From Streptomyces agglomeratus (GTDB lineage Bacteria > Actinomycetota > Actinomycetes > Streptomycetales > Streptomycetaceae), in NCBI RefSeq assembly GCF_001746415.1, contig NZ_MEHJ01000001.1:3307001-3371000 (forward strand): a DNA stretch of 64,000 nt, in the 5' to 3' direction. The position numbers and the translations under genes were made by a program. The notes below the pieces were generated by a model. The model made no database searches and was not told the DNA's origin. It saw only the letters and a list, made by a program, of their open reading frames with translations. Positions 28,760 to 31,384 of this stretch are shown in pieces. Within the stretch, counting starts at the first letter, position 1; the number at the start of each line of letters is the position of its first letter.

Positions 28760-28831
28760 TTCTAACGGGGGCCCGGCGTTCGCTTCGTCTCACCATACGA
28801 ACCCCGGCGGCGACCGCAGGACGGCTGCGGG

Positions 28832-28837
28832 CATACT
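28832..28837 (+). promoter_or_regulatory. Candidate -10 box of the chorismate mutase leader transcript
   Basis: CATACT ends 6 nt before the leader ATG at 28844 with no ribosome-binding site between, so the transcript would start at or next to the ATG. The match to TANNNT-type boxes is moderate (4 of 6 to TATAAT). Confidence 0.4.
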
Positions 28838-28843
28838 GGCCCC

Positions 28844-28915
28844 ATGCACGAGCAGCTGAGCTTCCTCTTTACCTATGGCACCCGGTCCGACCGGTGCCAT
28901 GGTCGAGCTGCTTGA
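28844..28915 (+). CDS. Candidate leader peptide with Phe/Tyr codons (attenuator of chorismate mutase)
   Basis: A 23-codon ORF, MHEQLSFLFTYGTRSDRCHGR plus two Ala, stop TGA at 28913. Codons 7-11 are Phe-Leu-Phe-Thr-Tyr written TTC CTC TTT ACC TAT; TTT and TAT are rare in this genome, as suits ribosome stalling when charged tRNA-Phe or tRNA-Tyr is scarce. It appears leaderless. It lies 114 nt before the chorismate mutase start and immediately before the stem-loop and terminator described separately. It could instead be a chance ORF, but position, composition and RNA structures agree. Confidence 0.6.
   Translation: MHEQLSFLFTYGTRSDRCHGRAA
28873..28902 (+). promoter_or_regulatory. Attenuator stem-loop 1 overlapping the leader Tyr codon
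   Basis: ATGGCACC and GGT (28875-28886, one bulged C) pair with ACC and GGTGCCAT (28890-28900) around a CCG triloop, extended by a wobble and one more pair. The 3' arm GGTGCC (28893-28898) can alternatively pair with GGCGCC (28938-28943) at the foot of the terminator, giving a candidate antiterminator. Confidence 0.6.
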
Positions 28916-28939
28916 GCTACTGACAAGCGACTTCACAGG

Positions 28940-28977
28940 CGCCCCGGGCCGACAAGGCCCGGGGCGTTCTGTCGTTT
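28940..28977 (+). terminator. Attenuator terminator upstream of chorismate mutase
   Basis: CGCCCCGGGCC (28940-28950), loop GACAA, GGCCCGGGGCG (28956-28966): a perfect 11-bp GC stem followed by the T-rich TTCTGTCGTTT. It lies between the leader stop (28915) and the chorismate mutase start (29030), where an ordinary end-of-gene terminator is not expected because the neighbouring guaA is divergent. Confidence 0.75.
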
Positions 28978-29029
28978 CCGGGCCCGATCGCCCCGGGGGC
29001 CGTACCCTCACCCACCAGGAGTTACGGAC

Positions 29030-29359
29030 ATGAGCACCCCCACCGCCACCGCCACCGCCACCGCCACGGCTGCGAAGACGAGCGCGACCGAGAAGACCGG
29101 TGCCCGCACCGACCAGGCCGCGGACCTGATCGGCAATGCCCGGGAGCGCATCGACTCGCTCGACGACAGGATCATCGGCCTGATCCAGGAACGCATGGCC
29201 GTCTCGGCCGTCATCCAGGAGGCCCGCATGACCTCGGGCGGGCGCCGCGTGAACCTGTCGCGCGAGATGGAGATCCTGGGCCACTACAGGGACGCCCTCG
29301 GAAAGCCCGGCACGGCGCTCGCGATGACGATGCTGGAGCTGTGCCGGGGCCGCATCTGA
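29030..29359 (+). CDS. Monofunctional chorismate mutase (AroQ class)
   Basis: 109 residues; converts chorismate to prephenate, the branch to Phe and Tyr. The helical AroQ core reads ERIDSLDDRIIGLIQERMAV (first active-site Arg/Lys helix), VIQEARMTSGGRRVNLSREMEIL and ALAMTMLELCRGRI. The first ~28 residues are a low-complexity Thr-Ala repeat (ACCGCC hexamers at about 29040-29070) likely disordered. ATG 29030 follows CCAGGAG by 8 nt. It seems to be controlled by the upstream Phe/Tyr leader and terminator, consistent with its position at the aromatic branch point. Confidence 0.93.
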   Translation: MSTPTATATATATAAKTSATEKTGARTDQAADLIGNARERIDSLDDRIIGLIQERMAVSAVIQEARMTSGGRRVNLSREMEILGHYRDALGKPGTALAMTMLELCRGRI

Positions 29360-29621: not shown

Positions 29622-29634
29622 GCCGTGTCCCACG

Positions 29635-29670
29635 GTCCGGCCCGTCCGGCCCGTCCGGCCCGTCCGGCCC
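29635..29670. repeat. Four tandem copies of GTCCGGCCC
   Basis: Exact 9-bp direct repeats at 29635, 29644, 29653 and 29662. Read on the minus strand they give a Gly-Pro-Asp tripeptide repeat within the open frame. Simple slippage repeat or the linker of a decayed gene. Confidence 0.7.
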
Positions 29671-29689
29671 GCCAAGGGTCCAATCCCGT

Positions 29690-30154: not shown

Positions 30155-31384
30155 ATGAAGCTTCGCCGCGCCATGGCCCTTGCGGCCGCGACGGCCGTCA
30201 TAGCTCCTGCCGCTTTCCTGGCTGCGCCGGCCGCGTACGCAGAGGGTGACCCCGCTTCCACCACGCAGACGGAGACGACCGACCCGGGCCAGACGGACCC
30301 CGCGGCCGAGACCGACCCGGTCACCGACCCCGACGCCGAGACCGACCCGGCGACGGACCCCGAGACCGACCCCGAGACGGACCCGGCCACGGACCCGGAG
30401 ACCGACCCGGCCACCGACCCCGAGACCGACCCGGCCACTGACCCGGCCACGGACCCGGAGACCGACCCGGTCACGGACCCGGAGACGGACCCCGTCACGG
30501 ACCCGGCCACGGACCCGGAGACCGACCCGGCCACCGACCCGGAGACGGACCCCGTCACGGACCCGGAGACCGACCCGGTCACGGACCCGGAGACGGACCC
30601 GGCCACCGACCCGGAGACCGACCCGGGCGAGGAGGACCCCTCCACCGACCCCGGTGAGGAGGACCCCTCCCTCGACCCCGAGGAGGGCGAGGAGCCGATC
30701 TGCGAAGAGGCCTCCATCCAGGTCACCCTCGGCGGCTTCCCGAACAAGATCGTCGCGGGCAGCGGCTGGAAGAACTTCACGTTCAACGTGGAGAACACCG
30801 GTGAGAACGACATCGACAGCCTGGGCGTCTACACCGTCGCCACGTACCTCGACTCGGCGGGCGACGAGGACAAGCTCGTCGACAAGTACGCCCACTTCGA
30901 GTACAAGGACCCCGAGTCCGGCCAGTGGGTCAACGACCTGGACGGAACCGGGTTCAACAACGGCTTCTTCTTCGGCGAGTTCGCGCTCGACGCCGGCCAG
31001 AAGGTCAGCATCGATCTCCGCGTGATGATCGACAGCGGCGCGCCCGCGGGTGACGGCCTGGCGATCGCCGCCGGTGGTTACGACAACGGCGCCGAGGACG
31101 AGACGTACAAGTGCTTCGAGAACGGGAACGTCTACCCGTTCGCCGTCGTCAAGGCCGGTACCAAGCCGGGCCCCGTCGAGGACTCGAAGCCCAGTGGCCA
31201 GAAGCCCCCGGCCGACATCAAGCCGCAGGGTGACGTCCGGGCGATCCCGGTCACCGGCAACCTCGCCGAGACGGGTTCCTCCTCGGTCCTGCCGACCATC
31301 GGCATCGTCGGTGGCATCGCCATCGTCGCCGGCGCGGGTGTCGTCTTCGCGATGAAGCGCCGCAAGGACGACGCGATCGCGTAA
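30155..31384 (+). CDS. Sortase-anchored surface protein with long Asp-Pro-Thr repeat (LAETG)
   Basis: 409 residues. A signal peptide (cleavage after AAPAAYA, about residue 28) is followed by about 130 residues built from TDPET/TDPAT/TDPVT units, highly acidic and extended. A beta-rich folded domain follows at about 185-335 (ICEEASIQVTLGGFPNKIV...ETYKCFENG, two Cys that may form a disulphide). The sorting signal is LAETG at 370-374, then a membrane helix and RRKDDAIA. LAETG is the class E sortase motif used in Streptomyces aerial growth. Ribosome site GAGG 5 nt before ATG 30155. No sortase gene is in the window. Confidence 0.92.
   Translation: MKLRRAMALAAATAVIAPAAFLAAPAAYAEGDPASTTQTETTDPGQTDPAAETDPVTDPDAETDPATDPETDPETDPATDPETDPATDPETDPATDPATDPETDPVTDPETDPVTDPATDPETDPATDPETDPVTDPETDPVTDPETDPATDPETDPGEEDPSTDPGEEDPSLDPEEGEEPICEEASIQVTLGGFPNKIVAGSGWKNFTFNVENTGENDIDSLGVYTVATYLDSAGDEDKLVDKYAHFEYKDPESGQWVNDLDGTGFNNGFFFGEFALDAGQKVSIDLRVMIDSGAPAGDGLAIAAGGYDNGAEDETYKCFENGNVYPFAVVKAGTKPGPVEDSKPSGQKPPADIKPQGDVRAIPVTGNLAETGSSSVLPTIGIVGGIAIVAGAGVVFAMKRRKDDAIA

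Follow-up and report, generated by a model that had tools for sequence, protein, structure and literature searches.

A putative phenylalanine- and tyrosine-sensing transcription attenuator upstream of chorismate mutase in Streptomyces agglomeratus and related actinobacteria

The chorismate mutase gene of Streptomyces agglomeratus is preceded by a short open reading frame (ORF) and a GC-rich hairpin, which raises the question of whether these elements adjust the gene to the supply of phenylalanine and tyrosine. We addressed it in a window of 64,000 nucleotides (positions 3,307,001 to 3,371,000 of contig NZ_MEHJ01000001.1), the whole stretch of DNA that was analyzed, and in relatives up to the rank of class. 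The encoded enzyme scores 125.8 bits against NCBIfam NF005894 (cutoff, 73), is also above the cutoff of TIGR01808, and matches PDB 2qbv with an E value of 1.4e-12; by its similarity to Rv0948c, we take it to be an actinobacterial intracellular chorismate mutase, presumably of class AroQ-delta. An initial annotation had read the segment before the gene as a Phe/Tyr-responsive attenuator. The conserved leader, together with an antiterminator predicted for ribosomes stalled at about codons 7 to 13, supports that reading, and the segment very probably places chorismate mutase under ribosome-mediated transcription attenuation, with charged tRNA-Phe and tRNA-Tyr as the signals sensed (Table 1). Beyond that annotation lie an apical hairpin containing the stop codon, the spread of the element past the genus, a variant with Trp codons before DAHP synthase, and a stability gap favoring the terminator.

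Table 1. Window coordinates of the leader features and the chorismate mutase gene
Feature	Positions	Strand	Basis
Conserved block GTCTCACCATACGAAC 5' of the promoter	28787-28802	+	Comparison of relatives
-10 box CATACT, 6 nt 5' of the leader ATG	28832-28837	+	Comparison of 109 relatives
Leader ORF, 23 codons, MHEQLSFLFTYGTRSDRCHGRAA	28844-28915	+	ORF listing and comparison of relatives
Sensor codons TTC CTC TTT ACC TAT (F L F T Y)	28862-28876	+	Conservation among 109 relatives
Stem 1 (segments 1:2), 28873-28886 with 28890-28902, one bulge, TAT codon included	28873-28902	+	Fold
Predicted antiterminator, distal helix (segments 2:3), 28893-28898 and 28900-28901 with 28936-28943	28893-28943	+	Stalled fold, stall profile
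Predicted antiterminator, apical hairpin, 28909-28914 with 28924-28929, stop TGA in 5' strand and loop	28909-28929	+	Partner test
Predicted intrinsic terminator, 28938-28950 with 28956-28968, T-rich tail to 28977	28938-28977	+	Sequence, fold, covariation
Chorismate mutase, 109 amino acids, like Rv0948c	29030-29359	+	NCBIfam NF005894, PDB 2qbv

The leader ORF at 28844 has the aromatic codons first ascribed to it, namely, F7 (TTC, 28862), F9 (TTT, 28868), and Y11 (TAT, 28874), and two of these are indeed rare. In a sample of 32 long window ORFs with high GC3, picked by length and composition rather than from annotated genes, TTT accounts for 5 of 344 Phe codons (1.5%) and TAT for 8 of 292 Tyr codons (2.7%). 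Conservation of the ORF and its aromatic codons, chosen beforehand as a check on the attenuator reading, came out in its favor: an in-frame leader lies upstream of chorismate mutase at 109 of 110 same-genus loci among the matches listed, in 98 distinct sequences. The one exception (L091) is a contig edge that begins 92 nt before the gene and was dropped before counting. The 110 loci comprise 30 kept from genomes of the genus and 80 named loci among the matches listed (77 of these 80 from Streptomyces), with at least eight contigs occurring twice. Within the 109 leaders, again among the matches listed, the first sensor codon is TTC in 103 and TAC in 6, any codon may follow it, the second aromatic codon is TTT in 108 and TTC in 1, the codon before Tyr is ACC in 108 and ATC in 1, and the Tyr codon is TAT throughout.

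The wider set of chorismate mutase leaders gave a similar picture, with TTT two codons 5' of Tyr in 174 of 180 parsed leaders and Tyr encoded by TAT in 174 of 180, the misparsed L148 being one exception in each count. Leaders L164, L184, L192, and L198 are without a Tyr codon. Both TTT and TAT are near-invariant against the GC-rich codon bias, and TTC and TAC are read by the same tRNAs as TTT and TAT. Four of 190 sequences could not be placed by the parser and were dropped (L137, L139, L140, and L143), while the misparsed L148 and L149 were kept as parsed among the 43 representatives and the 180 leaders and left out of the 41 diverse leaders used below.

The -10-like CATACT was found at its annotated distance from the ATG. 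Among the 109 relatives in the matches listed, the box reads CATACT in 108 and TATACT in 1, the gap to the start codon is 6 nt in 88 and 7 nt in 21, and all 109 have a start 6 to 7 nt past the box that shares the frame of the aromatic codons, a count for which our script sought in-frame starts only. This spacing points to a leaderless transcript that would begin at or beside the leader ATG. By eye, the -35 region of the window (28800 to 28831) is without the TTGG-type hexamer present 5' of CATACT in relatives such as L002. Further upstream, a block like GTCTCACCATACGAAC, with at most 4 substitutions in 16, occurs in 99 of the 109 relatives among the matches listed and lies 54 to 57 nt 5' of the leader start in 83 of those 99, and it is a possible operator for either the leader transcript or the divergent guaA. 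The GTCTCASSATNCGRRC-like block has one other exact copy in the genome, an intergenic one located about 0.3 kb 5' of what, judged by eye from sequence, is a citramalate-synthase-like gene (L256), and it may serve an amino-acid regulator as operator.

A scan for the whole arrangement, defined as a -10-like box, an ORF of 12 to 40 codons with at least three F or Y in five codons, and a GC hairpin, returned only one match in the window, the present leader. Over 931,044 strand-bases from named relatives (only loci of 6000 bases or more, which left out 6 of the 80), the same scan gave 74 matches, 73 of them with the hairpin and none other than the present leader.

The predicted folds contain the mutually exclusive 1:2, 2:3, and 3:4 structures of an attenuator. 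The 5' arm of stem 1 overlaps the TAT codon, in agreement with the initial annotation. That annotation had also foreseen an alternative pairing of GGTGCC (28893 to 28898) with GGCGCC (28938 to 28943); it appears in the stalled fold as the distal part of a longer antiterminator, in which 28900 to 28901 additionally pair with 28936 to 28937. The hairpin of the proposed terminator likewise holds, with a core of 11 perfect GC pairs (28940 to 28950 with 28956 to 28966) and the loop GACAA, although its tail, TTCTGTCGTTT at 28967 to 28977, is T-rich yet interrupted and has no clean U run. On the features that can be tested in the sequence, the U tract excepted, the segment can be counted among the attenuators. 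A second, weaker hairpin (28974 to 28982 with 28992 to 29000) overlaps the terminator tail; since 63 of 86 distinct relatives have a stem of at least 6 pairs at this place versus 45% of shuffles, its excess is a modest one.

Across the 41 diverse leaders, 91.2% of the cells of stem 1 and the terminator are paired, and two-sided changes were seen at 12 of 25 pairs (58 cells), which divide into 8 of 15 pairs in the terminator and 4 of 10 in stem 1. None of 500 shuffles equaled the observed covariation on any of five measures, under controls that leave the relatedness of the leaders in, and slid partners fell far lower. The genus-only alignment gave pair counts not above those of shuffles because its leaders are too similar, the signal appearing only with the diverse set. 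For the apical hairpin, 14 of the 41 diverse leaders have an exact 5-nt partner within the spacer of the same leader, compared with 9.5% for the spacers of other species, and 0 of 5000 permutations reached as high. Its strands pair as GCUUG/CAAGC, GUCUG/CAGAC, GCCUG/CAGGC, GCAUG/CAUGC, and GUGUG/CACAC, and the exact stop-anchored helix is absent from the other 27 of the 41. An earlier, looser version of this test with 6-nt strands found full pairing in 11 of 41 leaders (permutation, 0 of 2000). The distal antiterminator helix gave no coevolution in a swap test (406 of 5000).

To follow the switch in a model, we took each codon in turn as the A site of a virtual ribosome, folded the RNA that starts 12 nt past this codon and ends at the terminator loop, and took as score the sum of expected pairs that join the terminator 5' arm to leader RNA lying 5' of the stop codon. 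In the window, the score is about 1 to 2 at codons 1 to 6, 5.9 at F7, about 12 at L8 to T10, and 9.5 at Y11, falling to 7.8 at codon 12, 6.0 at codon 13, and at most 3.2 from codon 14, with 0.01 for ribosome-free RNA. An antiterminator is thus predicted for stalls at about codons 7 to 13 and no earlier. At the stop codon the value is 0 by construction because RNA behind the ribosome is left out; it expresses geometry and an assumed ribosome footprint and is no test of folding. Mean scores for the 41 diverse leaders are 6.8 at codon 4, 11.9 at the Phe two before Tyr, and 10.9 at Tyr, and with the 12-nt footprint none of the 41 falls below 6 pairs at either Phe or Tyr. When the footprint was varied from 9 to 15 nt, at least 6 pairs were retained at Phe in 33 to 41 and at Tyr in 38 to 41 of the 41 leaders. 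With these footprints, the position of the sensor codons in the model lets a ribosome stalled there hide segment 1, and one that has reached the stop codon hides segment 2.

The stall maximum falls within the five codons ending at Tyr in 39 of 43 representatives (of 186 parsed leaders), and two of the four off-maximum cases are the misparsed L148 and L149. Shuffling segment 2 and the spacer lowered the mean at Tyr from 10.4 to 4.9 in the 43 representatives. For the window, 3 of 60 such shuffles equaled the native value at Y11, and only 22 of the 43 representatives had three or fewer. A stall at codon 4 likewise gives at least 6 antiterminator pairs in 22 of 41 leaders, and in some species (L016, L144, L147, L155, and L207) ribosome-free RNA favors the antiterminator.

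With the ribosome at Phe and the 3' arm made, the terminator fold is favored over the antiterminator by 12.3 kcal/mol for the window and by a mean of 12.4 kcal/mol for the 41 leaders; the same gap in Escherichia coli is 0 to 8.1 kcal/mol for pheL and 3.5 to 3.9 kcal/mol at the Trp codons of trpL. A gap of about 12 kcal/mol in favor of the finished terminator leaves only a kinetic switch. The antiterminator would be trapped while RNA polymerase passes the tail, and a blocked terminator foot would suffice.

From the anatomy, conservation, and reading frame of this segment, the covariation of stem 1 and the terminator, and the predicted folds, we infer the transcript start, translation of the leader, termination, its kinetics, and a response to amino acids in the following way. 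Transcription would begin at or next to the leader ATG. When Phe- and Tyr-tRNA are plentiful, the ribosome would reach the stop codon and cover most of segment 2 (by the footprint that we assume, about 28890 to 28902), and the terminator would form. If either becomes scarce, the ribosome would halt at F7, F9, or Y11, covering segment 1 and freeing segment 2. The apical hairpin with the stop codon would then draw segment 3 near segment 2, which would pair with the nascent terminator foot, and RNA polymerase would read on into the chorismate mutase gene. With no ribosome, stem 1 would form, making termination the likely default in this genome.

It is conceivable that the same sensor controls translation or decay of the chorismate mutase message instead of termination. 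The broken U tract, a terminator far more stable than the antiterminator, and the second hairpin on the tail would all suit such control, but the AGGAG of the gene (29017 to 29021) lies about 50 nt past the hairpin, outside all described arms, and the GC hairpin is maintained by two-sided changes. We therefore regard this variant as improbable, if the least so of the alternatives. Slightly less probable again is a riboswitch or protein-bound RNA, in which a metabolite or regulator would bind the leader RNA itself and the ORF would have no role of its own. About 100 nt, spacer included, are nearly identical within the genus, which is beyond the need of a simple leader; nevertheless, the spacer is poorly conserved outside the genus, and Rfam gives no above-threshold match. 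Moreover, the start is in frame in every same-genus leader (in-frame starts being those sought), the stretch before the leader core varies in length by whole codons, and the leader codons change with the pathway gene.

The high conservation of the peptide within the genus, including its CHGRAA end, might also be taken to mean that the ORF encodes a small protein with a function of its own, the terminator merely ending its gene. In several species (L032, L080, L082, L085, and L108), however, the frame shifts after the Tyr codon to give a 26-residue ORF, so that the C-terminal half is in another frame while the RNA is largely kept; since the frame shifts in this way, the RNA, not the peptide, appears to be what is kept in these leaders. 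Outside the genus, mainly an F-x-Y-G core is left, and we consider such a protein very unlikely. Most remote of all is a gene remnant beside an ordinary terminator. FLFTYGT presumably resembles the start of a gamma-glutamylcyclotransferase-like gene in a superficial way, but no Pfam match was found up to an E value of 10, and the remnant is already contradicted by conservation, with the short ORF and stem kept in 109 loci and the rare codons kept as well.

How far does the proposed attenuator extend? A chorismate mutase homolog is present in 148 of 150 genomes of the genus. Covariance model R1, made from the 98 leaders without family f19, has one strong full-length match in the window's genome (E, 9e-39), shorter matches there being to the terminator part only; the next full-length match (G000:C1:7105203, L113; E, 0.001) was judged spurious. 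In the family, R1 matches 104 of 121 genomes at an E value of 0.01, although for genus g14 and for a few g7 genomes (such as G155 and G204) the matches listed are confined to the terminator part. Seventeen family genomes lack a match; among 14 of these searched with the window protein, 12 have no chorismate mutase homolog at an E value of 0.001 (10 of them from genus g14), G178 has the gene with a divergent leader, and G228 has a distant homolog (39% identical) and no leader by eye. In the order, R1 matches 133 of 147 genomes at 1e-6. Nine of the 14 genomes without a match were searched, and eight have chorismate mutase (G299 does not); seven of these eight loci have a leader by eye (L213 to L219), and one is at a contig edge. 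R1 had thus missed leaders visible by eye before the gene in L213 to L219, as it did in L184.

Model R2, made from 41 diverse leaders including 3 from family f19, has matches at 1e-7 in 80 of the 394 class genomes, spread over 23 of 137 genera. The 41 matched genomes outside the window's genus divide into 33 from f19, 2 each from f33, f39, and f28, and 1 each from f37 and f50, and 6 f19 genomes had been matched before by R1, in whose construction f19 had no part. Chorismate mutase lies downstream in all 6 loci of f33, f37, f39, and f50 (tblastn E, 7e-15 to 2e-28). Two f28 loci (L240 and L246), in which the hairpin is present and no leader is seen by eye, were judged spurious, as was the L205 match.

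Family f19 differs in its target. There the leader precedes DAHP synthase on the same strand at 32 of 32 loci (within L206 to L211 and L220 to L253), identified by its conserved peptide and, for one, by NCBIfam, in a sample of 32 of the 33 R2-matched genomes (G645 being the one left out). Trp codons occur in 31 of 32 of these leaders (FWFWYG, FWRFYG, and the like) versus 8 of 180 parsed chorismate mutase leaders, counted in a stretch of eight residues whose end is Tyr-Gly or its equivalent. Because the sequences are related by descent, this contrast is a correlation over few lineages and carries no P value. DAHP synthase feeds all three aromatic amino acids, and chorismate mutase only Phe and Tyr. 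There is an even chance, in our judgment, that one ancient actinobacterial aromatic attenuator is recognizable across several families, with target and codons changing together (Phe/Tyr before chorismate mutase, Phe/Trp/Tyr before DAHP synthase), and that the near-invariant TTT and TAT do not just reflect RNA pairing but belong to the sensor, tuned to be decoded slowly. A search with the window's chorismate mutase found no homolog in three f19 genomes (G389, G467, and G563). In some same-genus chorismate mutase leaders (L173, L176, L191, L192, and L195 to L198), a Trp codon stands beside a Phe codon (FWFTYG or WFSYG), although chorismate mutase does not lead to Trp.

Among known systems, the closest is the Corynebacterium glutamicum aroR-aroF attenuator, reportedly described by Neshat et al. 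in 2014, and E. coli pheL-pheA is also among the nearest cases. The two actinobacterial elements, compared here by description, are alike in placing an aromatic leader peptide before an aromatic pathway gene. In the excerpted accounts of aroR, a Phe-Tyr-Phe leader peptide precedes DAHP synthase and stalling occurs under Phe limitation (PMC11802643, PMC4046766); the gene is thus another one, and the response reported there is to the availability of Phe and not of Tyr. Excerpts of two further sources list Streptomyces attenuators at trpE, trpS, leuS, leuA, ilvB, and other genes (PMC8079986, PMC1262725), which, like the present leader, have leader peptides, several of them leaderless, and hairpins before amino-acid genes.

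The initial annotation knew of no attenuator described at chorismate mutase in Streptomyces, and we likewise found no report of a leader at this gene in the main texts of the open-licence literature, a listing in supplements being possible. Table 4 of a Streptomyces lividans study holds eight attenuators, none at chorismate mutase, and its main text is without the word "chorismate" (PMC8079986); the same word is absent from the main text of a Streptomyces griseus study with 79 premature transcription units (PMC8914203). Of eight upstream ORF candidates in another report, neither of the two described in its excerpted text is the present leader (PMC11109978). The proposed attenuator fills a printed gap, as, according to the excerpted text of a comparative study, conserved RNA structures had not been observed ahead of the Phe and Tyr operons of Actinobacteria (PMC1262725). 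Rfam gave no match up to an E value of 1 in 3001 bases around the leader, and the two matches that it gave in 7 relatives, both scoring well short of the gathering cutoffs, were snoZ194 (E, 0.53) at the L231 leader and one elsewhere.

The likeness to E. coli pheL-pheA lies in a Phe-rich leader before a gene with chorismate mutase activity. That mutase is annotated as fused with prephenate dehydratase, and sequence and enzyme form are unrelated to those in the window; pheL, moreover, has seven Phe codons and no Tyr, a clean U tract, and an antiterminator that competes better with the terminator than in the window. In the same kind of calculation, pheL and trpL have stall profiles of the same shape, high at the Phe and Trp codons, respectively.

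What is unusual about the present attenuator is its breadth, its change of target, and the invariance of its codons. Phe and Tyr are precursors of many Streptomyces natural products, and an element that precedes almost all of the chorismate mutase genes examined in the genus would be a control point at the branch to both. The leaders before chorismate mutase (Phe/Tyr) and DAHP synthase (Phe/Trp/Tyr) form a natural series for how leader codons follow the gene product, and because the rare codons hardly vary, the part that wobble decoding plays in attenuation can be tested directly.

Downstream of the chorismate mutase gene, a short tandem repeat of GTCCGGCCC units was seen by eye at 29634 to 29672. 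An ORF at 30155 to 31384 contains, also by eye, a long TDPETDPATDP-type repeat and, because a LAETG motif stands before its hydrophobic C-terminal end, perhaps encodes a sortase-anchored wall protein.
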